Source of the DNA: Sclerodactyla briareus
Taxonomy: Eukaryota > Echinodermata > Holothuroidea > Dendrochirotida > Sclerodactylidae
DNA length: 64,000 bases
Reading direction: 5' to 3'
NCBI GenBank assembly: GCA_026419785.1
Contig: JAODTK010000333.1
Location: forward strand, 434,001-498,000
The number at the start of each line of letters is the position of its first letter. Position 1 is the stretch's first letter. A program made the translations under genes and the position numbers. Positions 1,472 to 62,509 of this stretch are shown one piece after another. Under the pieces are notes generated by a model. That model did no database searches. It was not told where the DNA came from and saw only the letters and a program-made list of their open reading frames with translations.

Positions 1472-1988
1472 TTATAAAATAGAAACTTTACGATTATTTG
1501 AACTGATCATATGGTCAAGTTTTGGTGATTGCAGGCAACTTCTGTGAGGTGGACTTGGTGAAATTAGTGGCACCATATGGAAGTTCTATTGGAGTGGGGC
1601 AAAATGAAGTGAATAACCAAAATGGTGTATCGAGAGAGACAGTAAGAGGTGATTGACTACGCCATTGCAGTTTGACAAGTCCCACTAAAGGTCAAGGGAA
1701 TATCAGAAGAGTGCTTTGGCACGCTGTATAAGAAACTTATTACTATTACCAATATTGCACTGTAAATTCTCTCAATTGCCAAGACTTTTTTGAAGAACAC
1801 AAAACTGGAAAACGCCCATGTATGGTATGTCTTGGATTGCTAGTTGCAGGGTGAGTAGCACAGAGTTTACCTAACACCATATTCCTGTATGGATATCCCC
1901 CCTGTATTTATTTGTTTTGTGAAATTCAAATGTTTTTTTTCTCTTTTATTTGTAACAACCTCTTATTTGTAACGAGCTCTGTTTGCAG
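1472..1988 (+). other. PARG intron with non-GT 5' end
   Basis: This 517-bp interval lies between two exons whose peptides join without gap. It ends in a normal acceptor (CTCTGTTTGCAG) but begins TT. I see no coding sequence or recognisable repeat in it. Confidence 0.7.
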
Positions 1989-2106
1989 TTAATGGCAGCA
2001 GCAGAGGCTAAGAGGGAGATGGCATACTTCACATTCTACGACAGCGATCTGTGCCGGGACATTCACAATATGCATCAATTCCTCCAATCACAAGAGTGTT
2101 CTGTTG
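1989..2106 (+). CDS. PARG: PARG exon c
   Basis: The exon follows CTCTGTTTGCAG and reads LMAAAEAKREMAYFTF, then DSDLCRDIHNMHQFL, ending SQECSV plus one base. The donor is GTGGGT. The order matches the PARG segment that runs from AAAAAERDVVYFTFGDSEL to MRDIYSMHIFL and TVGD. It holds 39 codons plus 1 nt. The next exon supplies two bases, making Gly. There is no indel or stop in it. Confidence 0.93.
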
Positions 2107-3745: not shown

Positions 3746-3933
3746 GTGAACTGTTATCCGTTCTATGCAAGTACAGTGATCACGTACAACACAGGCAGAA
3801 GAAGTACCACCCTAAACTGTACCCATTCATCTTCGAAGTATTCACAAACTACGATTCCGACACCGACGATAATGGTGCCCCTTCTGATCAGCAGAACACT
3901 GGAAGCCCTGATTACAAAGTGGACACTCCTTGA
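3746..3933 (+). CDS. PARG: PARG terminal exon d, with stop
   Basis: The acceptor is TTTTTTTCTACAG. The first two bases complete a Gly codon. Sixty-one codons follow (ELLSVLCKYSDHV..., KLYPFIFEVF, then an acidic Ser/Asp tail DSDTDDNG) and TGA closes at 3931-3933. VGELL and KLYPFIFE align with vertebrate VGDVYKLLL and KLYPFIYHA, close to the PARG C-terminus. The tail after LYPFI is unique to this protein, as is usual for PARG. A +1-frame ORF overlapping this exon is a shadow. Confidence 0.92.
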
Positions 3934-5387
3934 AACCAGACTGGCAACCCAAGGTTTCTAGTCGAGTAAAGTCAGACCACTCCTTGGAATTTGCTCATCA
4001 GCACATACTGGAAGGAAGTTCATACAAATCCCACGATTCTCCTGACCTATCCAGACCACTGAGGAGTGTTCGATTGTCAAGACAGTTTAGGTCTGAGTTG
4101 GTACTCGAGTGGTTTTTCCTGCCTATCGTAAGGAATTGTTCAGAAATTTCACTTCTTTATGAGTTTGGAAAAACAACAAATGAAATTAGGGTAAACATTC
4201 AGAGGAGTGTGACAGATTTCCAAATGTATATACTCTGTATATTTATTGCCCCCTTCCCCCTCCTTCAAGAGAACTACACAGACCCTGTCTGGGGTCTGCT
4301 GATCCCCTTATTTTGACTGTAAGGTCAAGAGGTTCTTGGAGCAATGTGACTTACAGTGGGGAGGCCGGGGTTCTTTTCCTGGTTGGGTCATACCCAAAGA
4401 TGAAAATGGAGCCTGCTGACATTGCGCCTGATGCTCCGGCAGTAGGGAAAACCATTCACTGGCTCACAACTGGAAGGAGGAACCTAGTGGGTGCTGCAAG
4501 TTCACCTAGTTGGGTGAAAACTGAAACAATAATGCTTCTGATTTTGCTAACTTCATTCCCATTTCCTTGGGTTTTTATGTGCCCAAATTCCTGGCGTGAC
4601 TCTATATATTACATACTTGTAAATCTCTCCTTATCATAACATGCTGTTCATCGAACAGGTGTTATACCTAGAATTGATTTTCATGTCTGCTGCACAATCA
4701 CGTGCAATACAACATTCAGCAACCAGAGGTGACTTCATGTAACCTGTGCAACCCAGCATTCTACTTTAGTTTCCTTTCGATTGTGGATTCAATTTCTCTT
4801 GGAAGAATCCATCAGTTTCGAACAGGGTTCACTATGATGAGTTGGTATTTCTTGCCATTTATGAGGCAACTATGAGGAAAAACATTTCGTTTGTGCAATG
4901 TAAAGTTTTTTGAGCATCAAGAAAAAATATGATACATCAAGCATTGTTAGGTTGTCCAGCAAGAACATCCTCGCTGTGTGCTTGAGATCCCCTATTACCA
5001 CCTCTGAAATGGAATGTCCATCGAGCCTGGCTATACAAGACTTGTGGAAACTGTAAAGGGAATTGAAGTGAAGAAAGGCAAACTAAATTGATGTATGAAT
5101 GCCTGAGTAATGAGTTACTCATCTTTTTTGTTATCTGGAAATGGTAGAGACTAATACTGCACAGTCAATACTCATATACATATTGACTGTTGGGGGAAAG
5201 AGAATTTACCCATCATGCATAATGTGCAATAATATATTTCGCGGCATCACGTTGTAATAGTGAGTGATCACCAATATTTGCCATCATTTTGGTTTTTATT
5301 TGTGAAATTCACTCTGGAAATGAGAAGAACACGAAAGATGGTTTGTATTCATCAGTTAGTAGTGTTCTGAAGTTCTGCTATTCCTGA
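3934..5387. other. PARG 3' UTR / intergenic, unresolved
   Basis: This follows the PARG stop. I found no AATAAA or ATTAAA between the stop and about 5.3 kb, so the UTR end cannot be placed. Overlapping ORFs of 108-128 codons (3930-4639) show no family resemblance and no exon signals. Confidence 0.5.
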
Positions 5388-5530
5388 GGCAGTGGTTTGG
5401 CAAGTTGGTAAGCATCGTCCTTCCCACCCGGGAGACCGGGTTCGATATCCCGGTCGGGTCCATACAAAGACTTGTTTGCTGGGCCTTGAATAGGAAACGA
5501 TCCCTCTGCTCGGCAATATAATCAGAAACA
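5388..5530 (+). mobile_element. tRNA-derived SINE-like element
   Basis: A tRNA-like head contains an A-box-like TGGTTTGGCAAGTTGG and a B-box-like GGGTTCGATATCC at about 5438. It is followed by CGGTCGGGTCCATACAAAGACTTG. The T-loop has one extra base and the acceptor ends do not pair, so it is not a working tRNA. The 'CGGGTC-ATAC-AAAGACTT' junction is one I recall from marine-invertebrate SINEs. The 3' limit is approximate. Confidence 0.55.
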
Positions 5531-6719
5531 AAAAGGATGCAAAGTTTAACTAGAGGTTTATGAACCCCTAGTCCCCCCCCCGCAATCTGATCGTCTTGTT
5601 AAGGCTCATTAGCTCAAGCAACCTGATCATGAAGAGTTCAAATTGTCAGCAGTAGATGATAACAGCCAAATCTAAAAGCATATTTAGCCCCTAATTGGCT
5701 TCAATTATAAGATGGAGCTTCTCAGTGATCAATTTCACATTTCATTGCTGGACCAACAGAGTACCAAAGTTTTCATAGGCATGTGACAAATAGGCACATT
5801 ATAATACCCTAGTGACTCTGGATCGTTCTCTGTTGAATAGTCCCGGCCAACCTGGATCAATGCCCAATGTTCCATGGAAATCCCACGAAACCTAAAAGTT
5901 GGAACTATCAAATGACTTCAATGACCCACGTATGTTAACATTTTTTTAGGGCTAATGGTGGCCCATCCCCCAAGTTCCACGAAATTCCATCAGACTTTGA
6001 AGTTTGGCATGAATTATGGGCAGATTGGAGATGCCTATTGGATCACATGGATGATCTCCAGTGCCCAATTTTGGGACTAGGTTGATTGTGACTGTAAATG
6101 TACGGCCAACTGACTGAGGAATTAAATCTTGGGCACTCATACCATTTGTATGCACTGCCAGTATATAATGAACTGCTTCATATATGAATTAGTTCACAAT
6201 TGACAATTGGAATGTGAGCTCTATTGTTGTTGTTTGGGGGGTTCGGTCACTTTTAGATCAAAGGTCAATCCCCTTTTGGAGTCAAAGGTCATCCATCTCA
6301 GTTTCGGTTTCTTTGTTTGCTCATACTGCCCCCCTCATCCCATTATTTCAGAGATTACACACCGTACCTTGTCTGTCATAATGACAACCACTGTAAAACT
6401 GAGAGATGTTATTTAGGTTTGTATATGTGTGTTGTTACCTTCCCACTGGATTCTTTAGGATTATACTTGGAATTAATTGGTGTACTGAAATTCTAATACC
6501 TGTGTGTTATAACAGATGCGAATGGAGCTTGTGAGTTGTTGTGATGTCTGTGATTGTCTCTGATCAAGTTCCTTATGAACGTGCACGACATTCTTACCAT
6601 GAGATCGTGACAGATAATTGGACGTCTCATTTGCTGGTTGTTTGGAGCATGCACGCAGTGCGTCTGTGTACAAACATTGCTGTCTGGAATGTTTTTCATA
6701 CGCCCACTTCCTTACTGTC
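5531..6719. other. Intergenic, nothing recognised
   Basis: I see no conserved peptide, splice-flanked ORF or clear repeat between the SINE-like element and the minisatellite. Short ORFs on both strands look random. Confidence 0.5.
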
Positions 6720-7095
6720 AACTCAGTCGGGTATACCTCTCCTGCCAATCCATCAGATAAACACACTTTAGGCCTCCTTCTGCAATCAAGTAAGGTATAC
6801 CTACTCGAGCCCCTTCTGCCAATCAGTAAGTTATATCTAACCCAGCCCCTTCTGCCATCAGTAAGGTATAGCCTACTCAAGCCTACCTCTGGCTAGCATA
6901 AGGTATACCTACCAATACACTCACCAACCAAAAACGAAACACAAAACCACCTCCCCCCGCCCCCTCCTGCCGTTCATTCGGGTATACTTACTCCAGACCC
7001 CTCTGCCGATCAGTCGGGTCTACCTACTCCCACCCCCCTTCTTCCATTCATTCGCGTATACTCCCACACCCTTCTGCCAATCTGTCAGGTATCCC
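6720..7095. repeat. ~40-bp minisatellite (GGTATACCTACTC...CTTCTGCCAATCAGT)
   Basis: Eight or nine diverged units of about 35-45 bp repeat GGTATACCTACT, a C-rich stretch, CTTCTGCCAATCAGT. Units are clear at about 6728, 6792, 6833, 6864, 6898, 6980, 7017 and 7053. Small ORFs here (for example with LYLTQPLLPS) are by-products of the repeat. Confidence 0.75.
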
Positions 7096-7289
7096 TAATC
7101 ATACCATTGTCATGACTTTTAATGGCAGCAGTAACAACTCTTTAGAGAGGGTCTTGTATAGCTCCAATTTGGACTAGGATTTTCAAACAAGGCGATCGCC
7201 CCCATGTCTCCTTTCTACTAGGAACCATGCAAACAATTACAAGGCCTCCATGTGTCGCTCGGTATTAGCATTTAACAGAAACAGGCTAC

Positions 7290-7855
7290 TACTCAGTGAC
7301 CAATTTCAAGTTTGAAAGGACTGATTATGGACAATATCTACTAAAGGAGTAAAAGTTTTTTTTGACTCAATTATGCACATTGTAGGCAATTTGCCAAGTT
7401 CACGAAAATCTGGCAAATTATGTACGTTGAATGAAAGATTTTGGATGAGTTATGACAAATTAGTACGTTGAATGACCCAGAATCTTTGTTAAAAGTTTTT
7501 TAAATTTCGCATAAATTATGCAAATTAGGCGACTTAATTACCATATTTTACGCTGAAAATCTAATCAGTTAATTTACCTTAAATTCCGCATCTATGTGCC
7601 AACCAAGTCACCATAGCACCTACGGTTCATTCGTAATCTTGCTAACGAGCCTAAACAATAAATTACATAAATAGGCTAATTACCTTACTTAATTAGTGAC
7701 TTTGGTGCCCAAACCTAATCAGATTGTGTTCACCCACCCCGGAATTTTGTCGCAATTGCACTGACCGTTTGAAAGATATCCTGCTAACGAGAAAGTGTGA
7801 CAAACGCCCATAGTGAACAATTAATCTCCTCCGCAATTTCATTCAGGCGAGACAA
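7290..7855 (+). repeat. Dispersed repeat R2, copy 1
   Basis: Blocks such as CTGAAAATCTAATCAGTT, CGTAATCTTGCTAACGAG, TAATTAGTGACTTTGGTGCC and GAGAAAGTGTGACAAACGCC occur in the same order here and at 15.3-15.65 kb. Both copies end near CATTCAGGCGAG. A copy on the other strand starts at about 42019. Confidence 0.75.
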
Positions 7856-8159
7856 AAATCATAAGAGTGGATCTGGTTGGACATGTTTGTTTATTAAGGT
7901 TGCCATCTTATTCAACAGCAATAAATATATATTTGATCTCGATGCTGCAATGAAAATAGCAGATGTACGAGAAAGATTTTACAAGAACTTCATGTAATAT
8001 CAATGCAAAAAAAGCTGCAATGTTATGGGGAAAATGTCGTATTGATTGCAAATTTGTGGCATAATCGAATCGATACCCGTTAGGAAACAATGTTTTCTTT
8101 GGAAATCAGCTTTTAAATTACTAGAATGATAGCGAAAAGGCTTGGAGATTCCTTGACAG

Positions 8160-8590
8160 ATTCTGAGCATACTTATCGTGACTTATCATGTTCACAAGAA
8201 TACATACCTCAACCTCAGATGACATTTGATGGACCCCAAAACAATAGGTTTATGTGCTAAATTAGGGGGCTCCCACATACCAAGTATGAGCTGATCTATC
8301 AAGTGGTGAGGGAGTTATTGTGATCACAGGCTAAAATATCTACACAGAAAATATTAGGGTTCTTGAACTCCCCATTAAATTTGCTTGATCAGACCAAGAA
8401 TTATGAGGAACCTGTTCACTAAGTATGAGCTTAGGTTTTGAGGATGACCTCTGAACCTGACCCTAATACAGCAGGGATCAGGAAACTGTTACAGGGCACC
8501 CAACGCATATCCAGTTGTATGGGCTAAATCCATCCAGGTGAGGGTCACGTTATCGTGTCACCAGCCAAGTTTGGCAATATCAATTTTTCC
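8160..8590 (-). repeat. Dispersed repeat R1, reverse copy
   Basis: Read on the minus strand this shows GACACGATAACGTGACCC, CACCTGGATGGAT and 'ATACTTGGTATGTG' blocks like those at 2.3-2.7 kb. It is diverged. Confidence 0.6.
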
Positions 8591-9674
8591 CAAAAATGAC
8601 CCCAATCTACACTAATAATATAGTTCTTGTGTCCCCCTCCCTCTGTAAGAAAGCTTCATATTGAATTTTAGGTAGTATAGACAAAGCAATTTAGCCGAGT
8701 CATTCAGTTCTTCTCCTTCTCTTGACCCTGCTATGAGGTAAGGTTGCTGCAGCCTTGCAGGTCTAGGTCCCACGGGCAATGCATCATGTTTTTTTAATTG
8801 TAACATGACAATTTCTCTGAGGATATTTGGGAAATTATTATGATATGAATAAACGTCACCAAATCCTGGCAGTGAAAGAGCTGAAATCCTTATGATATTC
8901 TATAGTGTGTAATATACACATTGTTTCTTTCCATGAAAATATTTGAAAAAAATAGTATTTTGTCAATGTGGAATACATAGTGAAGAGACAACGGGTATGT
9001 ACCAATATCCCTAGAAGCAGACAATTGTCCATTACGAAGAAAAAAAATCATGGTGCATTCAGCCTCACACATAGACGAGAGCAAGTTTGCTGCTCTAGAT
9101 TTGACAGCTGAAGGTATCATCCCTAGATTCAGTATACACGGTATATTCAGACGTCCAGAATGATTGGTCCACATATCGCTGTAGCTGCATTATGGTGTTT
9201 ATGGCGATTGACAAACTTAAATTCCCTGTAGATTATTGTCCTATTTGGTCATTTGACTTGATTGCCCATGCTTTAGGCGACACATACAAGTATGTTAATG
9301 ATGGGCATATTTCAGGGCCCGAGTTATCACAGGTTTTGGGAAGGTTCTATGAAAGAAAAGATTGGGCGAGTTGTTGATCCTAACAGAATTTTAAGGTGCT
9401 GAGCACCGAATTACATGAACTCGGGCTTAGAACCAGAACACAAGATTAGGCAGCCTCTCTGTGGTATGACTGCATGGTGAAGGATGAAATGAATTCAACC
9501 TTCAAAGGGGAGCAATCCGGATAAATACCTTGCTCCATATGGAATGTGAACTCAACTGATCAGGTTACAAGATCTCTGAGTGATCTATGAATGTATAAAG
9601 TGCTATTTCAGGGAGACACAAAGTGCTGGTATATTCCTGTAGAAATTACTGGTACAGTGTCGACAGCTTGTCAA
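8591..9674. other. 3' flank of the GST gene
   Basis: This is the likely GST 3' UTR plus intergenic DNA. I found no TTTATT (AATAAA on the minus strand) close to the stop. ORFs at 8890-9377 show no recognisable family. Confidence 0.4.
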
Positions 9675-9841
9675 TCAGAATGGTGTCTCTGGTCGCTTCT
9701 TAAGCCAGTCAGCCAGCTCCGGTATAGCTTTCATATCCTCTCGAGATGCGCTAGCAGCTTTGGCTCTGTCACCTCCAGGCCAGGTACATGGCTCACGTAA
9801 TCAAGGAGGTAGGACACGGCATCCAGGTCCGCCAGTGACAC
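9675..9841 (-). CDS. Sigma-class GST, terminal exon (1-nt frameshift)
   Basis: This is the C-terminal all-alpha domain of a sigma-class glutathione S-transferase, the family of haematopoietic prostaglandin D synthase. On the minus strand, after ACCCCAG, it reads VSLADLDAVSYLLDYV, PGLEVTEPKLLAHLERI, then with a frame change KAIPELADWLKKRPETPF and TGA (9677-9675). VSLADL corresponds to the N-capping-box/hydrophobic-staple region (family TWADL), and AIPELADWLKKRP to the family end AIPAVANWIKRRP. The exon is 167 nt; one more base would give 56 codons in phase 0. The missing base lies near GAGAGGATATGAAAG (about 9728-9737). A sequencing indel or a real lesion are both possible. Confidence 0.88.
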
Positions 9842-10856
9842 CTGGGGTAAAAAGGGGTAGACCTGAGTGATCAAACTATTAAACGACCAATTGTTCAAAT
9901 GCTCAAACCGGAAAAAGATTCATGATGTAGTAACTAGTGAACTGTTGTGCATTGGTTTCAGTTATACTGCTACACAATTGTTCATTCGTTGAGGTAGAGC
10001 AGTCCATACTTTTAAAAAGGTTTATATCCCTTTGGCCTGTGATGATTTCTGTTAAAACGAGATTGAAGAATTATTCTTCAGATATAAACAAGCACTGCCC
10101 ATGGAAGATTCTGATCTAATTTTCAAATTTCTGTGAGCAACTTTCATGGGAGGAATAATGTTTTACATTTTCACATGTAACAGCTTTCATGCCCCCTTTC
10201 AAATGCCTTGACCTTGAATTCTTGGACCCCCCACATGTAACACTAGTAAATGATTACGCTGATGAAGAAATACCCATGGCAATCTAGTCACTCTGTAGCA
10301 GAAGTAGCAGTTAAGATTTTGGGCAACTTTTCCACACAATTGCCCACTATGCCAGCTTTTGATGACCCTCGAACCTTCAATTTCCAAACGTCCCCCCCCC
10401 CAAGGTACACTATCAATGAACACTGAGCGAGCATCATGACAATCCAATTTTTACCTCCTGTAATGACCAGCATGACCATTTGGTGGCCAAACAGGCAATT
10501 CACCAGACTGGATGGATAGATGAATGGATAGATGATGCATGCATCTAATTTTTTTTTTGTTTTACATTTTGTTTTTCTATTCTATTGGAGGCAAGAGCTG
10601 ATCCCTTGAATATTTTACACCATTAAAAGTTGGAATAATCTCGGAATAAAATGGCAATATTGCATCTAGTAAAATGACAATATGGGACAAACCACATATA
10701 TGGGGGGTACATTAATTCATGGGGACAGTTAAACAACCTCAAGTGATTGAATCCTAGTACTACAAAACTTCTAAAAAAACCACAAGTTTAGTAAACGAGA
10801 GAACCCTGAATCTGCATCTGTTAGCATTCAAAAAACAGCTATCTATTTCAACTTAC
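9842..10856 (-). other. GST intron
   Basis: This 1,015-bp intron has a donor GTAAGT (minus strand, at 10856) and an acceptor ACCCCAG. It contains an imperfect GGATGGATAGATGAATGG simple repeat at about 10510. No exon was seen. Confidence 0.75.
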
Positions 10857-10963
10857 CCCTTTTCCGACGAGATCCGTCCACCCCCATTGTCCTCCAGGAG
10901 TTTGGTCAGGTTTGCGAAGGGTTTGGAGGCGGTATCTCTAATAACTTCTTCAAACAGTGCGGC
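10857..10963 (-). CDS. Sigma-class GST, penultimate exon (1-nt frameshift)
   Basis: On the minus strand, after TTTTTTTTCCAG, it reads AALFEEVIRDTASKPFANLT, KLLEDNGG, then one base out of frame WTDLVGKG, ending at GTAAGT. The family has ...YLGGREWLIGNSVTWADF here, so WTDLVGKG joined to the next exon's VSLADL is the right continuation. The frame change falls in a five-C run (plus strand 10881-10885), and a sixth C restores it. The exon is 107 nt and would be 108 with that base, in phase 0 on both sides. A homopolymer deletion in the assembly is the simplest explanation. Confidence 0.87.
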
Positions 10964-11429
10964 CTGGAAAAAAAAATAATTCAGAGATAAAGAAAGGCCT
11001 GTGAGTCTCCCATGCCGAATTGGAATGTTACCACTCGAGGTTGGAAATTAGCTCAAACAGTGCCAACAAATGCACATCCCCCAATCATTGCGGCATTGAA
11101 AAAATGCATAATATGTGGCCTTTTAATACACACTAAAATAGCACCATTCTGCCTCTTGACCCTCCGTGAGAAATATTTTCAAATGAGCTACAGTAGTGAC
11201 CAGTACTGGGAAAATTAACACCCAATATAATATTATAAAACCATGCGATTTCATTTACACGAAATGTGAAACAAGTCCAGGAATCAACAAAGCCAACGGA
11301 TCTGGATTCAAGTTTTATGAGGTAATGACTTAGCTTTCTTGAACAATTAGTACAGGTGAGACAAAAATGCAGTAGACCAACTAAGCAGCAATGATTCATA
11401 CACCTAATTAACCTAAAAACTTCACAGCC

Positions 11430-11840
11430 AAGCCCAACCGTTCTTTATCTTTATGGCCAAGGATCTGCTATAGACATGGTTATTGTACTCAGAATGAATC
11501 TAAGGAGCTACCTTTATCGGCATAGGGGATTTTTCTAGACCATCGTGAACCAAGAGCGCGTCCAATGGGGACATCTTGGATTTCTGCACTGGACCATTTT
11601 CCTAGGAGAAGACTGAGTCTTGGGAAATACCGGTACCATGGCTTAGTATGTTGCCTAAGCCAAGGATCTTACCAGACATGTCCCTAGAAGGGACCTACAG
11701 TAGCTTAGGACCAAGGATTTGCTGGGACGTCGTGTTGTAACCAAAAGTTAGTCTGAAAACTGACATTTGTGGCCGGGATCTTGCAAGACATGTTGCTTTT
11801 GAAAGGTTTAGTTTAGATGAACCTACCCTCATGGCCAAAG
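11430..11840 (-). repeat. Intronic minisatellite R3, distal block
   Basis: Diverged units of about 55-75 bp repeat GGACCTACCTTTATGGCCAAGG, ATCTTGCTAGACATG, CCAAGA-TTAGTCT. The same unit occurs beside the GST donor at 15835-15985. On the minus strand each unit can contain AAAGGTAG, a 5'-splice-site-like string. Confidence 0.65.
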
Positions 11841-11999
11841 ATCATCTGAACGTGAATTTTCACAGTAGCATACCAGAGATTGTCATGGGGGGAGGGGGGT
11901 TTGAGGTCGGAACAAAGGGGAAGTGCACCCTCATGAATGGCCATGAGGCAAAAGTCGCCCCAGAGAAGAATTCGCCATTCCTTGCAATGACGTAGTGAG

Positions 12000-14990
12000 T
12001 TCATGGCAGATCTATGCCGCTGTTTACGGAGGACAATGCGCTGGAAGGTAAAAAGCGAGATTTTCCTTGATGGTTGAGACTCTTATGACTGGTCCCGAAC
12101 AGATTTAGGACCAGACACGGTCAACCTAGCACGCGCCCCCCCCCCCCCCTTAAAATTCTTGAGATTTTTTTTTTGCCGGCATGAGCCAGTGAAGTTAAAG
12201 TTTGGACAAAAGCCCCATCTGCAATCTGTCCACAGTCAGAAGGCACCACGATGCGGGATGGGTTGTATTGTAGGTATTTTTAGCTCCTAAAACGCGATTG
12301 AATATCTAGAACGGCCCAAAACTTTACAATTAGTACAGACCGATGAGTGGCTTGTCCAGGCTATAATGATTGGCGATGACATGTGGTTGATTTACCCATT
12401 CGAGCGGCAACGCGCTCTGGATGTTGTTGCGGCGGAAACAAAATCTGTTGATGATGAAGAGAGGCAAACATTTCCGGTCGGCAGATGGCAGATTTGTAGC
12501 TACATGGTTAGTTGTCAAGGCGTTGGGTAAAAGGCCCATGAGGATCCTCCGGTCGTAGATTACCTACGGCTTGTGAGACGAATAGGATTTACGGTTTATT
12601 TGGCTCATGTTCTCACCAGGATTTTACCGGTTTGCATGCGCGCACATAGGGATTGGTTTGTTCTGTACTCGATTCACCTTCACGAAAATCGCCCCACCCC
12701 TCTTGGAGAAATCTGTATCCATGCTGGTCAAAGTATTGTGCTATAAGGTTGCCACAATCAATTTTACCTACCATGGGGATTGAGAGGCAAACGTACAATG
12801 GCCTGTTGGTGATCCCGTGTTATCCGTATATTTATACATACACGAAAATTAACAAAATAGTAAACTTTTTTCAATATTTTTCGTCTAGTAATTGTCCTCA
12901 TTCTACTCAACAGGATCCTGTCCCGCAGTAGGGAAGGTTTAAGCCTTGAATCAGCGTTTCAGGGGCAGCTTCTGATACTAATCCGATGTTGGCGGAAATA
13001 ACATTCCTCCCAATACTTCTTCTTGTATACCCCCCCCCCCCCCCCCCCCCCCCCCCCGCCCTCCAGAAGCCCTACACGTCCATTTAGCCTTGAGCTCTGG
13101 CAATTGATGCTGTACTCGTTTTGTGTGCAGTGGTAGAACCTCTCGTGATCTCAGATGACTTTCAAATTCATCCATAACATTTGTTCATTTTGCACTCAAT
13201 CGCGATTGCGGAGTATGTATGAAAAGGGTCAAATTCCATTCGCGCAGTGGAACATCTTTTTGAAGACTTTGTCCTCAATGGTACTCAAAACTGTGTATAT
13301 TTGGATCACTACTTGACCAAGTACAAAACAAAAAACGCGATCATGGTTTCTTCCTAATTCCCATGCAAATACTTATAAGTCAATATATCTAATCTGTTGT
13401 TTTCGGTTTTGGTATTAGCCTTCACCATGAACAGCCTATTATCAGTGGGAAAAAAAAAAAAAAAAACAAAAAACTTAAAACCCCCCCAAAAAAAAAATTT
13501 TTTCAAATTCATAAGGACTGATTATTGTACCATGTCTATCAGGGCTTATATACGGTGTGTGGAAATGAGAATAAAAATTCCTAAATTATATAATTTAGAC
13601 ACAATACTCGACTTTCAAGACCCATTTTCTCAGGACAATGTGGACCACACTTAATACGTTTCATGAGAATCCAACAAACTTGAATGTTTTGCATGAATGA
13701 TGTAAATTATACAATTGAATAAGCCACAGTGACTGGAGCAATGTTAAAATTTGTGGGGACTCCAGGCAGACCATACCCATGAAGTTTCATGAAAATCGCA
13801 CAACACGTTGAAATTTTGAATAACCCATGCCAATAGAACACTGAATTATCTCTAGTGACTGCCAGTCTATGTTAAGAATGAAATTTGTCGTTAGTACTCC
13901 ACGTTTGAGTGGTGTTGAATCCATGAGCTATTCTTAATGGACCACCAGTGTTCCTCTAAAATCCATGAGACAATCATTTCATAATTTTTTGGTTATGCTT
14001 CGTGCAACAAAATACAGGAGAAATGCCGTTTCCGGCCATCTGGGAGGTCCTCAACCGGAAATTTTCTCTGACCTGACCTTAGGTGTCAACGATGACCAAT
14101 GTAATCATCAATACATTGTGACCAAGTCGGTGGAAATTCATCGAAGCATGAACATTTGATGGCCCAAAAACCAAATCGTTCAGACGAGATGGATGGATGG
14201 ATTGATGGATGGATAGATAGATTAATGACGCTGGGCATCACATAGCTCACCCAACCTTCATGGTAGCTGTTTGAGCTAGAAAAGATTATAATCCGATTAA
14301 TCCAAATCTTCTGTATTTGTTCTGGTTGGTGATTGTATGTGTTACAACAGGAGGACTAAATCATAATCTTTCAATCTTGCACATTACACATGTATCAATC
14401 TCATAAATGAGGCTGACTGGCTACTTTCTCTGTTACAATTATCAGGTGTGTTGTCTATAGAGTCTAGACCTCTATCAAAAGGAAAAAAGGGCGAAAACTC
14501 ACTTATTTCATAGCCCCCAATTAATCAGCAGTTGGATATTCGGTATCGATTACTATATTGTGCACCATAATCAATTATTTAATCTTTAGTTGGAGCACAC
14601 CCTCAAAATTTTTTGGGGGGGGGGGGGCAACATCACTGTTCTTCAGAAAAGCAGCAACAGAGCAGTCCGCATCACCATCACAGGAGCTATTTGCGCATGG
14701 CCTCATCCTCACTATTGGCAAATAACACATAATACAACACGTCCCCAGGTAAGGAGATGAAAGAAAAATGTTACAGTATTTTTGTAGGTCTAATCAACCT
14801 AATCAAACTGGTTGGGTAAGAGAGCGTTTGCTTGAGGGCAGCTTATAACAGCAGTAAAATTGTCACGGAGCTCTGTTTAACTCTCTACCACATCTCTTTA
14901 ACCCTCCGTCCTCAGTGCTTTATTCCACCAGGGTCTATTTATTAGAATTCAATCAAATTCATGAACATCAAACACATCAGATCCAGAAAA
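12000..14990 (-). other. Middle of the long GST intron
   Basis: No exon was recognised. It holds C runs (12136-12149; 13030-13057, 28 bases), an A-rich/C-rich patch (13451-13503), a GATGGATGGAT/TAGATAGAT tract (14190-14222) and a 13-base G run (14615-14627). The 12330-12539 minus ORF has no family resemblance. Confidence 0.5.
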
Positions 14991-32869: not shown

Positions 32870-34740
32870 GGCCCCCCCAAACAGTCATTCTGTCTGCGAT
32901 GGATTCGAAACAACTTTGGCACAAGTTTCCCTAACCCATGGGACATTATTTGCCCTGTTAAGGTCAAGGTCAAAAGAAAGGGGCAATATAGCCTTCAGTT
33001 TGTAACTTTCAAAAATGTATCTCCCTTACAAATTGTGCTGCCAGCGCCGATGGTTCGGTCATAATATGGTCTATCAGCCGTACCTTGGGTGTTCAGGAAT
33101 TTTTGGTCCAAGGTCCTCCTTGGGCCCATGGGCCCCCATTTTATGAAATTTCACACAATATCTTGAAATGCATCTCCTCCCACAGTCTTCAATGTATTTC
33201 TTCAAGTTACATGTAATGTTTCTTTCTTGGGTATAGGGCCATTGGATCCCAAGGGCCCATTTGTTAAATCCACAAAATCTTGTATCTTCTTTGAATGTTG
33301 TTGCACAGTGCTGATGTTCGGTCATAATGATGTCATCAGCCGTACCTTCGGGGCCTACGTCAGGAATTTTTGCAGTCCAAGGTGCCACTTGGACCTGAGG
33401 GCCCATTTTATGAAATTTCACACAATAGTATTGAATGCATCTCCTCCCACAGGCTTCAATGATTTCTTACAAGTTACTGTAATGTTTCTTGGGTATAGGG
33501 CCATGGGCCATAGGGCCATTCTGGTAAATACCACAACATCTTGTATCTTCTGCAAATGTGGTTGCACAGTGCCTGATGTTCGGTCATAATGTGGTCTAAG
33601 AGTATACCTTTGGGGTGTTCAGGATTTTTTGATGGTCAATGGTACCGACTTGGGCTCGAGGGACCCAATTCATGATAAGTACACAATGGTGCTGAAATGC
33701 ATACTCCTCTCACAAGCCTCAACTGATTTCTTCGAAGTTCATGTAATGGTCCTTGGGTAGAGGGCATTGGTGGGGTTCAGGAATGTTGGGCCCAGGGCCC
33801 AGTGTGGCCGATTATGGAAATACGCAAATCGTTTGTATCTCTGCCAAATGTAGTTGCACAGTGTGAGTTCTTCGGTGATAATGGTGGTCGAATAGCCATA
33901 CTTGGGGGTGTTCCGGATATTTTGGTCCAGGTTCCGACTCGGGCCAGAGGGCCCATTTTATGATATTTACACAATGGTGCTTGGAATGATCTCCACCCAC
34001 CACAAGCTCCAATTGATTTCTACAAGTTACATGTATAATGGTCCTTGGGTAGAGGGCATTGGAGATGTTCAGGGTTGGGGATCAAGGCCCAGTTTGGGCC
34101 CGATGCTCCATATATGAAATACCGCAAAATCTTGTATCTCCTACGAAATTTAGTTGCACTTGCACCATGTTGATGTTCGGTCATTAAGATGGTCAATGCC
34201 ATGCCAGGGTGTCAGGAATTTAGGACCCAAGGCCCAGTGTGGGACCGAGGGGGGCCCCATCATGTGGAATTATTGCAAAAATTTGCTCCTCCTCTTTTGG
34301 GCACAGTACTGACAGTCGCGTCATAATGATGGTCCAAAACGTGTACCCTCCGGGTCAGGAATTTATGCTCCAAGGTCCCACTTGGGACCGTTGACATTTA
34401 AGAAAATTCATGGAATTTCACCAAATGGACTTCAAGGCCCGATGTGGGCCCAGGGACCACAGATTAAATCACGAAAATGCTTATACAAATTTTGATGCAA
34501 AGTCAGTGTTGATGTTCGTTCATAACCTGACGTCTGATAGCCGTACCTTCAAGGTCCTCAGGAATTTTGGACTGAGACCCAGTGTACCGAGGGACCATCC
34601 TGCTGCCCTCACGTTAAAATGCTTCGCTCCTACATATTTTGGGGCACAGGGCTGATGTTGATTATAATGATGGAATAGCCATACCTACAGGCTTGTCAAG
34701 AAATTCTGGTCGAGGATCCACTGGCTACTACAGCCTTCTA
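32870..34740. repeat. R4 tandem array, units of ~260-310 bp
   Basis: The landmark GATGTTCGGTCATAATGATG recurs at 33053, 33316, 33578, 33867 and 34175, with decayed copies near 34315, 34513 and 34652. Each unit also carries GCCGTACCTT, CAGGAATTTTTGG, CAAGG-CC, TGGGCC, TTTATGAAATTTC and CTCCTCCCACA. Spacing is 262-308 bp. ORFs of up to 134 codons in the array are repeat shadows. Confidence 0.85.
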
Positions 34741-50200: not shown

Positions 50201-51965
50201 GACACTTCGTTCCAGCGATATCTAACAACGCAAGCATGTATTATGTTTCATATCAGGTAGGTAGGTGTCACCCATGTAAGGGATGACCCCTATTGTTTTG
50301 GTACGCAATCGAATGGTCGTTCAAGGTCATGAGAGGTTAAACTTTGAAAAGTGTTTTCGCACGATATCTATGATCGCAAGCAGGTAAAGAAATTCATATT
50401 TGGTAGGTAGGTGTAACCCATTGAGGGGATGACCCCATGTTTTGTGTGAGGTCAAGGTCATTTAGGGTCATTCATATGGCAATTTATTTCTTGGCAACGA
50501 AACATTTTAGAGTGATGTCGTAATGGAAGTTTTGTTCGTCTGTGCGAGTTACATCTGGTGGCCCAGTTTGACATCATTGACTTTGGACCTCATTCTGACC
50601 ATTGAACGGTGTTACCGAGGGCTAAGATAATTTTTTGTGAGGCAGGATTTGTCGTGTTAAGACGAAACAAAAAGTCAATTACACTAAAATGCTACGATAT
50701 TCCTGATCAAAGTTATGAACCTTTTTGAAGGTCGAGACGGCGGAAAACGCTGAAATGTAGGTTATTTTGACATTTGGCCTGAGATCTTGGCAATGAAACG
50801 TTTGGGAAATACTGTAACTGGAAAGTTGTGTTTGTCTATGCGGAACTAAATTTGGTGACCTACTTTGATTCCATGGACCATTACCTTATTTGACCGTTGA
50901 CCTGTAACCTGAGGAGTACGTTTTTGATTCCTTGGATAAGCTATCCTTTTCCAAGTGGTATCTACGAGCGCAATATCCTGGTAGGTGGGATGCCATAATG
51001 GTGGAGTCGATCCCTATTGTTTTGGTTAATTTGATGGAAGTCAAGGTCATGGAGGTCACAGGTGAAAAGTGTTTTCACACGATAGCCTTCAGAAGGGAAG
51101 CACGGATTAAAGTTCAAAACTGGGACTGTGGTGCTGGTATGAGGGAGGGCCTTAGTGATTTCACGTTAGTTCAAGGTCATTCAGGGCACAAAATAGGGAA
51201 ATACGTACCAATTTGGGATAAAGTGCAATGCAATTGGTAGGAATGCGGAAATGTATACAAGATCGTTATTAGGTAGGTGGGATGCCCTCATGGTGGAGTC
51301 AACCCCTATGTTTTGGGATCATTTGATGGCTGTCAAGGTCATGGGAGGACAAATTCAGAAAGTTTTTCCAAAACAAATCTGCAGAAGGGAACAACGTATG
51401 CAAGTTTCAATCTGGTATTATGAGATTGCAGGTATGAAGAGAAAGAAACTATTGTCTTTAGCGTGAGGTCAAGGTCATTTTAAAGTCATTTTGAGGTCAT
51501 ATAGAACATCCTTATTTCTTGGCAACGAAACATTTTAGAGGAGTGTTGTAGTGGTTTGGTTCGTATGGCAAACGACATTTGTTGACCTAATTGACCTCAT
51601 TTGACCTCATGGGACCTTTTAACCTGGCGACCTAACGTGGTAATTTTTTTGTGATGACCAGTTTACTTGGAGGTTGCAGGTATGGAGAGATGAACCCAAT
51701 CGTCTTTAGCGTGAGGTCAACGGGTCATTTAAGGTCATTTTGGGTCATTATAGAACAATCCTTGTATCTGGCAATGAAACATTTTAGAGGGATGTTTTAG
51801 TGGAAAGTTTGGTTGTCTGTGGAAAACTACATTTGGTGACCTACTTTGACTCAATTGACCTCATGGACCTTTAACCCGGTGACCTCACAGTGGTAATATT
51901 TTGGATGACCAGTTGACAGTAAGAAAAACAAAAAAGTCCATTACACTACCATAGTACGATACTCC
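50100..51965 (+). repeat. GGTCA-rich higher-order tandem array
   Basis: Units contain TTTTGATTCCTTGG, a 'GGTAGGTGGGATG' block, GTCTTTAGCGTGAGGTCAAG, GGTCATTTTGAGGTCAT, TTGGCAACGAAACATTTTAG, GAGGGATGTTGTAGTGG and TTTGGTGACCTACTTTGAC. The 'GGCAACGAAACATTTTAG' landmark lies at about 50495, 50790, 51522 and 51770. A (GT)n tract is at about 50163-50200. The array is also related to R1 (2.2 kb). Tandem ORFs inside (102 and 71 codons) are repeat products. Confidence 0.8.
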
Positions 51966-54984: not shown

Positions 54985-55215
54985 GACAAAACCTAGGTAA
55001 ACACTAATTGTCTTTAGCGTGAGGTCAGGTCATTTTGAGCTTCATTATACAACAATCTTTATATTTCTTGGCAACGAAACATTTCAGAGGGATGTTGTAG
55101 TGGACACTCTGGTTCCTCCTGGCAAACTACATGCGTGACCTACTTTACCTCATGTGACCTTCCAACCTGAAGACCTCACGTGTACTTTTTTTGTGATGAA
55201 CTGCTATCGTATAGA
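54985..55215 (+). repeat. Isolated unit of the GGTCA array
   Basis: GTCTTTAGCGTGAGGTCAGG, TTGGCAACGAAACATTTCAG, GAGGGATGTTGTAGTGGACA and TGTGACCTTCCAACCTGAAG match the 51.46-51.92 kb units. Confidence 0.8.
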
Positions 55216-55485: not shown

Positions 55486-55817
55486 CTAATACCGTCAATT
55501 GTTTTATTTTGCGAATGGGAATAATACACTAAGCATCGTCAACACAGCAAGAACGTTGTTCGTAAAACTAGGCCGTAGCTAGTTCGCCCCTTACGTATCA
55601 AGTAGTCATACAGTCCGATAAGTATGGAACGCCGAATGGGCCAAAAATTATGTGGTTACTCGTTCTGATACGTGACTCTTAAGCGGAATAACGACCTAGG
55701 AGTCATTATTCCATAAGGTGAATATGGAAATCAGAAATGTCACTGCATGTTTATGCCCACTCCTCGCATGCAGGCTGGTGACTGTGAGATAAATCTGACC
55801 CGACTCTATAAATTTAC

Positions 55818-55902
55818 CTTGGTTCCATATGCCAGAGCCCACTACCCTGGAGCCAGAAGCGATCAATGCGATGAGTGTGATGGCGGTACACGCATCTGCC
55901 AT
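55818..55902 (-). CDS. Candidate exon 1 with signal peptide
   Basis: Minus strand: ATG, then MADACTAITLIALIASGSRV, VGSGIWNQ plus G, and a perfect donor AAG|GTAAAT. The hydrophobic stretch TAITLIALIASG looks like a secretion signal. Phase 1 fits the next candidate exon. The difficulty is that this lies inside the segment that seems to have inserted into the fold-back element (55713-59023), while exon 2 lies outside it. Both readings cannot be simple. Confidence 0.3.
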
Positions 55903-56109
55903 GGAGGGAAACACTAATTAATTATGAAATTTGGGAACTCAAACATATCTTGGATGTGTTGTAATTGTGTTATGCCAAATTTCAGTACCACCCTTTTCTC
56001 ACAGTGGTCGCTCGAACATCTAACAGCTTTGTAGCTTAAGATTCTATCGGCGATAGTCATATGACCCCCAATGGCGACCTCTTCTCCTAAAACCGTTTTA
56101 ATGAACTAA

Positions 56110-58905
56110 TGGGTGAAACCATGTACCGTACTTTGAGGGCCATGGTTGTGAATTTTCCACAACAGCGTGAAAACAAGGTACCTGATCTGGCGGCTGGCCT
56201 CGAACGCCACTAACCGGACATGGTGATAGGTACCTGAGACTTGGCTGAACCCTAATAACATCACAGATAATGAAATATTCCTGAGAATATGCTCTGATTA
56301 GGAAGGATAGAAAAGACGGTTATGGTGGTGTTCTGATTGCTGCAAAAGAGATCGAGTATGACACCGAATTGGTCAACCCTGATACAGACTGTGAAATTGT
56401 GTGGTACACAAATCCAGCTTGTTGGTGGCAAACGTGTACATTGGTGTCCTTATTACCGCCCACCAAACAAAACCTGGTCTGAAATTATCTAAATCGCACT
56501 TAGACATTCCTTGTCTCAATTGAATATCACTCACTGCTTCCGATACTGTTTGGTTGGTTGGAGAGCCTTCACTCTTCCTGTAAGGACTGGACTTCTCCCA
56601 CTCAGTTTACCCAACTCACAGAAACTTGAGTCAACAATTGCTAGATATTGTGGAAGACTTTTGATCTAACTCAGCTGTTTTCTGACTCCACAGGAGACGG
56701 CAATATTCTTGACTTGTTTTTCACAAACAACCCCCCTCGTTGAAAAGTCTACATTAATTCCCCTGTCTGGATTGACCATATGGAATTCCAATGCATACCA
56801 TCAGCCTCACCCTAATCTGTCATCTTAAAACATTAAAGTCTACCTCTACAATAAAGCTCACACTGAAACATGAAGGAATGATCTGACCATTCAGTCATGA
56901 CTTTATTGAAAGATTAACCCCCCAACCAGGGAATGTTAGCATATTGGAGAGATTTCAAAAAACCAAGCTCAGGAGATCAATGACTAATTCACATCCCAAC
57001 TAAAATGATTACTATTAAAAATAAGCACCCATGGTTAATCAGAAATAAGAGTCTCTTAGGAAAAAACAAAAGCCTAACACCAGGCTTTGCAGCCAGTCAA
57101 AATCCTGAGATTGGGATTTTTTAGAGATCTTAGGAGATCGACCCCCAAAATCAATCACCAACAGCATCGGAACTATATTATTAAAACTTGCATGGACTCA
57201 AAAAAGAAGCTGGTCCCGTTTGTTAACAACTGAGGAAAAACACAACTGGCATTCCCACACTGAAGGACCAGGGAGTTTTGGGCTCTGACAATATACAGAA
57301 GGCCGTGCTTCTGAACTTGCAATTCCCTTCTGTCGTCACTAAAGAAAACATGGAACCCCTGCCAACTGTGGTTGATAGATCTCCATCCATGCCCAAGATC
57401 TTTTTACTGGAATGGGGGTGAAAACTTTTGCTAAATTAAATCCCATAAGCTACTGCCCTGACGATTAACCATTACCACCACGGGGTCTAAAGAGTACGCC
57501 ACCTGAATTAGCCCCCCAGTGTTGGACCATTAATTTTTCATCTCTTTGGACACAGTGCACTCCCTGCTTACTGGAGGGAGGCAAACATTTCCCCCATTCA
57601 TAAAAGGGGCCTCGTGAGATGCACTTACGACCCATTTCCTTGACTTCAGTCACGAGTAAACTTTTAGAGCATATTGTTCACTCGCACATAATGACTCATT
57701 TCTTGACACCCATATTATTCTCACAGACACACCACAATCAGCCCCGGTTTATGACAATACTTCCTGTGCAACTCAACCTGATTCATACGTACCATGATCT
57801 GGCTTTCTCTCTACACGAGCAAACAGAGTGATGTCATCATCATGGATTTCAAAGTCATTGACACCGTTCCACACAACCGGCTTCTCGAACTCGACCAGAT
57901 GGGGTTGATGGCACAATGACTAGGTGGATATCCTGCTTTCTCACAAACCGCAAACAGCGTGTGTGTTTGGGTGGGGAGTTTTCTCAATGGGTAAGTGTTG
58001 ACTCTGGTGTTCCACAAGGTACCGTTTTAGAGGCCGCCTTGTTTGTTCAACGCCTATATAAATGATTTGCCAACCACCACAACTCAACTGTTAGGCTGTT
58101 TGCTGACGATTGTGTTCTTAATAGAACCCTTAATTCCCATACTAACTCTGATCTGCTACAAAGTGACTTGAACCTCTATACCGCCTGGACAAACTGGCAA
58201 ATGAAATTCAATGCTGAAAAATGCAACGTTCTTCGTATCTGCTAGTAGATTCCTCCTAATATTTTACACCACTACAACCTTGGGTAGCACATTCTTAAAG
58301 CCACTGCTTCGCATACTTACCTTGGTATTGACATAAACATGATCTGAATTGGAATAATCCCATAAACCAATTACACTTGCTGCTAACAAAACAATTGGCT
58401 CGTTTCGTCGGAACCTAAACTCCTGTACTGAAGACACCAAAGCGAGGTTTAATAGTAAGACCCGCCTCATCCGTCCAAGCATTGAATACGGTTCCTCTGT
58501 TTGGGACCCGTACCCTGTACAGCTCACTCAGAAGCTTTAAAGGGTTCAGAGACGTGCAGCCAGTATGGTACACAAACAAACTATGATTGGGACCACAGTA
58601 CATCGGTCTGCCCTTGTTCAAAACCTTCAGTGGGATCATGTGACCACTAGGAGGGAGATTACCAGGCTCTCTACTTTTCACAAGCCATATGTAGTCACCT
58701 TGCCATTCTATTCATGATCACCTTTCAAGCCCCCAACGTTAACCCCGGCCGCTCCAACTCGAACAATCATATAATTGAGCATCACACACTTCGGACTGCT
58801 ACAAATACTCCTTCATTCCAAAACCAAAAACAAGGGACTGGAACAACTTGCCCACATGAGATTACAAGTATTGTTAACCCAGCGAACTTCAAAGCTGCTG
58901 TTTGA
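56110..58905 (+). pseudogene. LINE ORF2 (endonuclease + reverse transcriptase), heavily frameshifted
   Basis: This is non-LTR retrotransposon ORF2 for target-primed reverse transcription. The order is right. Endonuclease: ETWLNPNN at about 56236, then GYGGVLIAAKE, then YRPPNK at about 56450. Linker: KTFAKLNPHKATAP (about 57430). RT: LRPISLTSVTSKLLEHIVHS (57620-57680), GVPQGTVL (about 58006), AYINDLPTTT (58051), LFADDCVLNR (58097). C-terminal: NWNNPINQL, ARFNSKTRLIRPSIEYGSSV, WDPYPVQLTQKL, then RAATNTPSFQNQ... to VNPANFKAAV and TGA at about 58905. There are many frame changes, so it is dead. The clade (CR1/L2/Jockey side) is judged from motif style. Confidence 0.88.
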
Positions 58906-59031
58906 TCGACACCTGAGGCTTCAGCATCGGGACAACCTCCCCCTGTTTAGTAGCACTGCACACCCCAACCCTGCTCGTTTGTTCCTGAGGAATTTTGGGC
59001 AGTTTCCACCAAAGAGAGAAGAGATTATTCC

Positions 59032-59855
59032 CCTAACTGTTCCAAGCTCACATAAGTGAAAAGTTCTCGTTTATCGCCCAATAAAAGCGGGTGGAACGAA
59101 AAATGACGCCGTTTGCGCCAAAATTCAAGGCAGTCCGGTATTACCCGTCAGTTTTCAGTGCCGTAATAATGAGTTCCTTAGTCATTATTGCACTTCTCAT
59201 GCTCTCATGCCGGAATACGACTGCTTTTCTCATTATTCGTCTAGTTTCGGAAGGCATAATAATGACTTACTGCTCGTTATCCCCGCCAATCCCCATTCAG
59301 CATAATGACTTAACTGGGTCCTTATTCCTCCTCTCTCATTCCATAATAATGACTTAGTTTCTCGTGAAATTTCTGGGGCCCTAACCCGATTAATAAAAAT
59401 GACTTATTTACTCATTATTCCACCCTTCTCGATCCATATAATGCTCGATTACTCATTATTGTGGCCTTGCACGTAGACGCATTGATTAGTTTCTTGGTCT
59501 TATTTCCCGCTTACGCGTTTCGGTAGAAGTGTGAGCTGCTCATGTAGAAGTAAGTCCTTATTGCCGTAAAATTGGGGCGCCCTTCCAGATATTGGCGCTC
59601 TTCCAAAATTGAGGCGCTCTCCCCGAATGAGAAGAGGACGTGGAGAGATTTTTTCACTGCTCACTTTTCCTATCAGGGGTCCAGTTTGGTGTTTTCCGCT
59701 GCCCACGATGGAAAATTTGCGTTTTTTCGTGTGGAATTCGTGAAAAATTTGAAGAAAACGCAAAATCACAATTTGGCTTTATTTGAGTGTTTCTATGCTA
59801 TTCATCCGAGCAATATTTCATTCCATTCGTTGTCCGATTTGGCTTCGGTATAGCC
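59032..59855. repeat. Fold-back left arm, main piece with ATAATGACTTA motif array
   Basis: It pairs with 61680-62400 on the opposite strand, for example TTTTTATTGGCGATAAAACGAG against CTCGTTTATCGCCCAATAAAAG. It holds repeated units of about 60-65 bp built from CATAATAATGACTTAGT and CTCATTATT. Confidence 0.85.
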
Positions 59856-60618
59856 TGTTGAACAGGCGTTTGACTTTGTTCACCTCGTTCAGCCCATTCA
59901 CTCCTCTGTGCAGGGTGGCCCTTTTAACCAATAGGTGATGTGCCTAACCAAACCCCTGTTCGACTTCGTTCTGCTCGCTGTCGAGCTGTATCATGGGCGG
60001 GACTATGGGGCGGTGCGACGTTAACGTTGATTGCGCAATCGGACATTCTCTCTTTCACTAGATTACGGGAAACGGCCTGGTCTGAAGGAAAATACCCTCA
60101 TGGGTTCTGATTTAAGAATTGTTTAGAAACCAAGTTTTGCATACTTAGATGGATATTCTTTTTATTTGCCCATGAAGGATTCATATTTTCTGAACGGCTG
60201 GCGGCGATACCAAACAAGCTGCAATATCTGCGCATAGCCGCCCGAAACAGTGGCTCCGGTCAAGTTTAGGCTTCAAATACATCTTTCTTCGATAATTTCT
60301 CATTTTCGGTGTTGTTAAAGGTTATTGAAAGTCTTCTGTAAATATTAATGACCTATATATTGGGCGACTTTCCGCGGAGCGAATCTTTAAGGGTTGCTCC
60401 CTTCCATATAACGCCAATGTGCTACTGATGACTGACATCTACGTCACCAGAACTTTAATGAGCAAAATCCCAATTTTTCTGGAGATTCGTCAAACGAAGG
60501 TCTTGGCCCCAGACAAATGTTGGTGAGGATTCGACCCAGTGCCGGATATTTATACTACAAGAGCGATAGCCCCCTCTATTTTAGGGATGGCTTCTCCCAA
60601 ACGTCTATTCGCAAGCTA
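59856..60618. mobile_element. ~760-bp insertion in the fold-back left arm
   Basis: The segment is absent from the right arm and flanked by GCTTCGGTATAGC (59842) and GCTTCGGTATGGC (60619), a 12-13-bp duplication typical of target-primed insertion. Near its right end a reverse tRNA-like B box (GGATTCGACCCAGTGCC, about 60527) suggests a SINE-like origin. No ORF of note. Confidence 0.6.
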
Positions 60619-60764
60619 GCTTCGGTATGGCTTCCTGGGGCCCCAGTTCCTCATGTTCTCTCCATGTCGGGCATCTGAGTAGTCACCTTCAGTGGCGGCG
60701 GAAGCACAACAAATTGTGAGAGGAGGGGGGGGGGAGGGACGCCGACCAAACTTGTGATGAATTG

Positions 60765-60978
60765 TTGTTGTTACTATCTAAGCGGAGCCGCCACCATTGG
60801 TTGGCGCAGGATCGTACCAGGAAAGTTGGTCGTTTTATAAACTCATAGATGGCCGGAAACGGCACTTTCTGAGCGTGTGTGAGCTATTTGTACTCAGTCA
60901 TAAAACTGGGGTCATGTCTGCAAAATCGTAGTTATCAATAAATGTATGTATGAAGAATGTTAATGCATATCAGATGGG
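60765..60978. mobile_element. ~215-bp insertion in the fold-back left arm
   Basis: The right arm reads continuously GAATTGTTGTGGGCTTGGAG where the left arm has 214 extra bases between GAATTGTTGT and GGGCTTTGGAG. No clear target duplication and no coding content. Confidence 0.55.
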
Positions 60979-61090
60979 GCTTTGGAGACGCAAATTCCCG
61001 CTGAGTAGATCCCGGGGAAGGGATTCACAGGGTGGGGGTCTTCCACCCTCGTCCGCCCCCCCCATCTAAGAAAAATCGATTTCGTTATTT

Positions 61091-61399
61091 TATATTAATA
61101 CGTCGTTTAAAAGCCACCAATTTGTCCCACTTTTGGTGCTTTTTAAACGTCCGTAATAATTTTGCACTTATTTGGTCAACTATTGTAAAATTCGGAGGGA
61201 ACCAAGTGTTAAAACATGTTAATCTTTCAGTTGTTTCGTTCGCCCCATCCTCCCTTAAACGGGAGTCGAACCTAAACCCCTAACCAGAAATGCACGTCCG
61301 CCTACGCTCAACCACGTACCACAGTGTGATGGCCCTGGGGCGGGAAAGGGGCTACCGGAGTGAGCATCATAATTACTCAGTCTCGATCATGGCACTGGA
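61091..61399 (-). other. Loop of the fold-back element, with tRNA-like boxes
   Basis: Unpaired centre. On the minus strand (about 61319-61258) TGGTTGAGCGTAGG is followed 42 bases later by GGTTCGACTCC, the spacing of tRNA A and B boxes. No cloverleaf forms. This may be a SINE remnant or an internal pol III promoter. Confidence 0.4.
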
Positions 61400-62503
61400 A
61401 ATTCACCGTAATGAGGACGGAATCGATTTTCTTAGATGCGGGGGGGGGGGGGGTGCGAAGGTTGTGACATCCCTTTCCCCGGGCTCTCCCTCAGCGAGAA
61501 TTTGCGTCTCCAAGCCCACAACAATTCATCACAAGTTTTGTCTTCGTCCCCCCGCCCCAAATTTGTAGGCTTTCGCGCCGCCACTGAGTTGACTACATCA
61601 GATTCAGACATGGATAGAATCTTGAGGTGACTGGGTCTCCAGGAAGCCTTACGAAGCCAAATCGACAACGAATGGAAATGAAATTATTGCTCGGATAAGT
61701 AGCGAAGAAACACTAAAATAAGCCAAATTGTGATCTTGCGTTTCCTTCAAAATTTTCCAGCCAATTCCACACAAAACGCGAATTTTCCATTCTTGGGCAG
61801 CAAAAACACCAAACTGGCAACTCTGATTCCCGGTGAGAGCGCTTCAATTTGGAAGAGCGCCAACTATCCTTGGAAAGGCGCCAATTTTACGTGCAATAAG
61901 GACTACTTCTAGTCATTATGCAGCTCACACTTCTGCCGACACGCGTAAGCGGACTAACGACCTAGAACTCATTATGCTGTCTACGTTCCAGGCCACATAA
62001 CGAGTAATCGAGTCATTATTATGGATCGAGACGGGCGGAATAATGAGTAGTTAAGTCATTTTTATGAATCGGGATTGGCAGAATAACGAGAAACTAAGTC
62101 ATTATTATGAATTGAGAGAGGAGGAATTAGGACCAGCTAAGTCATTTTGATGAACGGGGATAGGCTGGATAACGAGCAACTAAGTCATTATTATGCCCTC
62201 CGAAATAGACGAATAATGAGAAAAATATTCGTTTTTTACGGCATGAGACGGTGCAATAATGATTAAGGAACTCATTATTACGGCACTGAAACTGACGGGT
62301 ATACCATGACTTGCCTTGAATTTTGGCGCAAGCGGCGATCATTTTTCGTCCACCGTTTTTATTGGCGATAAAACGAGCAATTTTCTCATTATGTGACTTG
62401 GAACATAGGTGGAATAATGAATTCTAGGTCGTTATTCCGCTTAAGATTAAAGTATCAGAACGAGTAAAGGCAGCATAATTTTTGGCGCATTCGGCGTTCC
62501 ATA
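61400..62503. repeat. Fold-back right arm (uninterrupted)
   Basis: The complete ~1.1-kb arm. It includes a 14-base G run (61440-61453), the ATAATGACTTAGT motif array (61905-62290) and the terminus CGCATTCGGCGTTCCATA. ORFs here are shadows of the inverted copy. Confidence 0.85.
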
Positions 62504-62509
62504 GATAAG

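Follow-up and report, generated by a model that had tools for sequence, protein, structure and literature searches.

The 6.9-kb palindrome towards the right end of the DNA analysed here, a 64,000-nucleotide stretch of Sclerodactyla briareus contig JAODTK010000333.1 (hereafter the window), raises the question of which type of transposase could have moved it. An earlier, sequence-only reading of this DNA described a fold-back element and could name no family for it. We propose that positions 55623-62503 are probably a non-autonomous fold-back IS3EU/GingerRoot transposon, whose movement would depend on an integrase-like DDE transposase supplied in trans from elsewhere in the genome. The proposal is based on the TATGG (at 55623) and CCATA (ending at 62503) termini and on a 6-bp target-site duplication (TSD), since together these match the published IS3EU signature, so that a family name can be suggested after all.

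Complete IS3EU families are described as always having TA..TA termini and usually 6-bp TSDs (PMC10045372). GingerRoot, which belongs to the same lineage as IS3EU with 99% bootstrap support, has 6-bp TSDs and mostly TA..TA ends (PMC10045372). The IS3EU families of rust fungi combine 6-bp TSDs with terminal inverted repeats (TIRs) of more than 30 bp and TAYGG..CCRTA ends (PMC12730594), and in animals two oyster satellites are labelled DNA/IS3EU (PMC8268682). The S. briareus element shows TA..TA termini, a 6-bp duplication and TIRs that, at about 1.1 kb, are well above 30 bp. This combination of ends and flanks is infrequent in the window: TAYGG and CCRTA are found 0.1-12 kb apart in 1737 pairs, and identical 6-bp flanks in 2 of these. 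The other candidate, at 1821-13775, was rejected, as it has no terminal repeat that scores better than chance (its score was reached in 364 of 500 shuffles).

Direct reading and self-alignment agree that the inverted repeat spans 55623-62503 as one unit. The right arm has 1087 bp and lacks the two inserts with duplications that interrupt the left arm, and the arms pair in four blocks (left 55623-55713 with right 62503-62410, 59032-59847 with 62409-61652, 60626-60768 with 61651-61518, and 60977-61085 with 61517-61417). The element ends carry the terminal sequence TATGGAACGCC, and TATGGAACGCCGAATG is found at both of them, identical at 16 of 16 positions. These results bear out the claim of the sequence-only reading that arms of about 1.1 kb with a shared terminus enclose a loop of about 300 bp (331 bp in our alignment), and its claims of a GATAAG target duplication and an internal motif array hold as well. 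Across the four blocks 962 of 1050 ungapped positions are identical (Kimura two-parameter distance 0.089); the same alignment counts 71 gap events, and its substitutions are 34 transitions and 54 transversions. Under other settings the number of substitutions is 88-106 and that of indels 62-75. Because the arms differ to this extent, a simple fold-back artefact of the assembly does not fit. BLAST within the window leaves the element unmatched outside 55623-62503 at E-values up to 1e-3, and also at 1e-6.

GATAAG lies directly outside each end, and of the lengths 2-11 tried only 6 fits as a flank duplication. Identical 6-mers at the spacing of the element occur at 31 of 57107 window positions, and the duplication alone is good, not overwhelming, evidence. 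It is convincing because it sits exactly at the end of a kilobase palindrome. The same frequency of chance matches, together with the single copy, could be taken to favour the view that this is no unit transposon with a 6-bp TSD at all, but a palindrome of an older repeat made by rearrangement with a coincidental GATAAG, or else an element of the Tc1 type, with the TA of TATGG as its duplication. TA is indeed present at both outer ends, and a 2-bp TA duplication is compatible with a single copy. We nevertheless think this very unlikely, as the arm similarity ends at the GATAAG border on both sides. In the 300 bp of flank beyond GATAAG the similarity is no better than in shuffles (local score 19; 200 shuffles, mean 17.6, maximum 24).

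The long TIRs are also what would be expected of a MuDR/Foldback-type non-autonomous element of the Mutator superfamily with an atypically short duplication, because such TIRs are typical of Mutator-like elements (PMC5225508), and IS256/MuDR is jointly credited with duplications of 4-10 bp (PMC10045372). Typical duplications of Mutator-like elements are 8-10 bp (PMC5225508), and lengths of 8, 9 and 10 do not fit here. With 8-10 bp in Tetris (PMC4079207) and mostly 9 bp in Tm1 (PMC3169594), the fold-back elements described also argue against a Mutator assignment. We consider this assignment unlikely. Published Dada elements have a 6-7-bp duplication, a range that includes the 6 bp found here. 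Dada was rejected all the same: Dada-U6 and Dada-U1 are without TIRs and Dada inserts in small nuclear RNA and transfer RNA (tRNA) genes, whereas the element has 1.1-kb terminal repeats, and in the window neither a tRNA nor, at gathering score, an Rfam family is called.

The termini of hAT elements (CAG/TAG) and of Polintons (AG..CT) are unlike TATGG, which counts against membership in another superfamily with a 6-bp duplication. We regard such a membership, or one in the P superfamily of Galileo with its 7-bp duplication, as quite unlikely. As in our element, 6-bp duplications are given by hAT6, going by a reference title, and by Polinton, and the TIRs of Galileo reach about 1.25 kb (PMC3573991); the 7-bp duplication of Galileo (PMC3573991) does not fit the flanks of the element.

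Several points weigh against the IS3EU/GingerRoot assignment, and the 6-bp duplications of hAT6 and Polinton are one of them. TSD length and ends are taken from one insertion, the single copy in the window. In the 64-kb window and in collections of prokaryote and virus contigs, no transposase, partner or second copy was found. TAYGG is stated for the rust-fungus families, and for IS3EU at large only TA..TA is given (PMC12730594, PMC10045372). Among the open-access papers listed, we saw no fold-back IS3EU. A pattern search for the element ends gave no match in the viral contigs and 2 in the genome contigs, and two arm-internal strings gave 1 and 0 matches in the viral contigs. We attribute these three loci to chance, because only 19-24 bp match at the pattern and the other matches are short and unrelated (E 0.01 or worse). 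As the collections consist of prokaryotes and viruses, they say little about other copies in animals.

A further characteristic of the element is a motif of paired inverted half-sites, ATAAYGA-N8/9-TCRTTAT. All eight matches in the 64 kb lie inside the element, and 100 shuffles gave none. One pair is found close to each terminus, and the right arm also contains an array of eight units spaced at about 43 bp, with a half-site pair at the head of every unit (Table 1); four of these pairs are exact, three have one mismatch and one (62126) is more degenerate. There are also observations that limit this picture. Single half-sites are found outside the element too (27 of 56), and a strict test for 23-bp dyads (at least 18 of 22) found none inside the element and 33 outside. 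The motif is therefore best described as paired inverted half-sites and not as full palindromes, with the symmetry limited to the half-sites. In Galileo the binding sites of the THAP domain lie about 70 bp inside the end and in internal repeats of the 1.2-kb arm (PMC3688188). By analogy, the half-site pairs would probably be the sites that the transposase binds.

These features suggest how the element could have moved. Since neither the arms nor the loop contain a stop-to-stop frame of more than 99 codons (nor does the element anywhere outside the LINE insert described below), the transposase would act in trans, supplied by a gene elsewhere in the genome; the longest arm frame, 59554-59850, has a single Pfam match, below the cut-off. 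This enzyme would cleave the DNA at the TAYGG ends, which it would then insert into a target with a 6-bp stagger, and the half-site pairs would offer it several binding sites per arm, helping the two ends to meet. After landing, the element would have received two insertions, a long interspersed element (LINE) and a 768-bp element flanked by 9-bp duplications, and it is probably dead by now.

Table 1. Features of the fold-back element and its inserts (positions in the window).
Feature	Position	Strand	Basis or remark
Left target-site duplication GATAAG	55617..55622	.	direct reading; length 6 only
Left arm, interrupted by inserts	55623..61085	+	four blocks pair with right arm
Terminal-proximal inverted half-site pair, left	55688..55709	+	66-87 bp from left end
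ATTATTCC duplication, left copy	55705..55712	.	flank comparison
Insert 1, 3311 bp, decayed, presumably CR1/L2-like non-LTR (long terminal repeat) retrotransposon	55713..59023	+	absent from right arm
ATTATTCC duplication, right copy	59024..59031	.	flank comparison
GCTTCGGTA duplication, left copy	59842..59850	.	flank comparison
Insert 2, 768 bp, imperfect terminal inverted repeats	59851..60618	.	self-alignment
GCTTCGGTA duplication, right copy	60619..60627	.	flank comparison
208 bp in left arm only, insertion or right-arm loss	60769..60976	.	neighbouring blocks contiguous in right arm (61518/61517)
Loop, 331 bp	61086..61416	.	self-alignment
Right arm, 1087 bp	61417..62503	-	self-alignment
Eight-unit array, spacing about 43 bp, half-site pair at head of each unit	61954..62278	+	226-550 bp from right end
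Terminal-proximal inverted half-site pair, right	62414..62435	+	69-90 bp from right end
Right target-site duplication GATAAG	62504..62509	.	flank comparison

Three insertions in the left arm had been claimed, and two of them are backed by duplications of their own. Insert 1, between 8-bp duplications ATTATTCC, contains endonuclease and reverse transcriptase remnants spread over several frames with many frameshifts. Taken singly, two of its seven pieces have weak, sub-threshold matches to RVT_1 (E 0.0043 and 0.042). For the joined piece the RVT_1 match passes the cut-off (E 1.6e-8), and of 3162 candidate proteins 2639 are matched at E 0.001 or lower. Among the 120 matches listed, several have what we take to be PHD, endonuclease and reverse transcriptase domains, and we presume that this LINE is of the CR1/L2 type. 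A Branchiostoma belcheri protein is 38% identical over 49% of the query, and better matches reach 39% over 86%, 50% over 95% and 31% over 84%. On these similarities the protein matches of insert 1 appear animal-like, and no more than that. Insert 2 has imperfect TIRs of 21-22 bp (TAGCCTGTTGAACAGGCGTTTG / TAGCTTGCGAATAGACGTTTG) and a duplication, GCTTCGGTA, of 9 bp, which becomes 10 bp when the initial T of the insert is included; at the corresponding site the right arm is one G shorter. It looks like a family of its own, and its duplication and terminal repeats would suit Mutator-like elements.

The third claimed insertion, the 208-bp segment, stands less firmly: no flanking duplication was seen by eye at 60769-60976, so that the right arm may instead have lost it. 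Two smaller segments, of 27 and 16 bp, are also present in the left arm only. Inserts 1 and 2 both postdate the fold-back, and since they are not nested in each other, nothing beyond this follows for their timing. The uninterrupted right arm had been proposed as a template to date each event; it does reveal which sequences were inserted, but gives no dates for the insertions. Neither is dating from arm divergence reliable. One reason is that the arms need not have been identical at insertion. Another is the unusual composition of the differences, since in the first of five alignment settings 58 of the 75 arm indels are single-base and transversions exceed transitions (54 vs 34), so that sequencing error may be part of them. 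In the main arm block there are 0.60 single-base indels per substitution, and in ten further repeat pairs from the window this ratio is 0.00-0.52. Sequencing error may thus contribute to the arm differences and need not explain all of them.

The innermost arms were considered as a separate element (CAGTGGCGG at 60692 and 61588). This was rejected, as no duplication was seen by eye and the identities of the two inner blocks, 89 and 91%, are close to the 92% of the outer two. We also observed CAGTGGCGGCG at both inner-arm positions, 60692 and 61588, which presumably resembles the ends of other transposon families, so that the palindrome may have captured an older element from which its inner arms stem. 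In the loop, ARAGORN found no tRNA and Rfam gave no family at gathering score, with two sub-threshold matches (E 1.1 and 1.7). By eye, the minus strand of 61240-61340 contains an exact B-box-like GGTTCGACTCC, near 61250, and a weaker A-box-like stretch upstream of it. That the loop is a decayed tRNA-derived short interspersed element is only a guess.

Other repeats are found in the window as well. A tandem array at 33053-34073 consists of units of about 262-292 bp, the copies of which differ by many indels and share 88% of their ungapped positions. A repeat of about 100-250 bp is present in several direct copies at 50440-51917, and one more at 55007-55199, just upstream of the fold-back element.

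How does the element compare with known fold-back and long-armed systems? The TU fold-back elements of sea urchins have long inverted arms with internal repeats and a duplication of 8 bp, a length that does not fit the flanks found here. Tetris of Drosophila virilis is likewise a fold-back element with tandem repeats inside its arms and no autonomous copy known; it differs in its 8-10-bp duplications and in arm repeats of about 220 bp, against about 43 bp here (PMC4079207). The Tm1 Mutator/Foldback elements of root-knot nematodes share composite arms with short internal repeats, as well as nested inserts in some copies, and their arm identity averages 93.15% over 61 elements; their duplications are mostly 9 bp and their repeats 13-15 bp (PMC3169594). 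Galileo, of the P superfamily in Drosophila, resembles our element in that its non-autonomous copies have long arms, which reach about 1.25 kb and are repetitive inside; it differs in its 7-bp duplications and THAP-domain transposase (PMC3688188, PMC3573991). For Galileo it has been suggested that the transposase owes its specificity to the many binding sites in the long arms (PMC3688188). Galileo has also been tied to chromosome inversions, and long-armed elements therefore bear on genome rearrangement.

With IS3EU and GingerRoot the element shares its termini, its TSD length and TIRs of more than 30 bp. It is unlike them in that its arms fill almost its whole length, that they contain an array of half-site pairs and that there is no transposase gene. 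One explanation would be that the fold-back form, which is known chiefly from elements of Mutator and P type, arose independently in IS3EU/GingerRoot, and that arms with a 43-bp half-site array are a putative landing platform with multiple transposase sites, convergent across unrelated transposases. We offer this tentatively, as a possibility that falls a little short of an even chance. If the IS3EU/GingerRoot assignment is true, an orphan fold-back element gains a superfamily in which its membership can be tested, since further copies would be expected to show 6-bp duplications and TAYGG ends, and the autonomous partner to have an integrase-like transposase. Another type of transposase would then join those with kilobase, internally repetitive arms, which agrees with the suggestion made for Galileo on binding sites and specificity.

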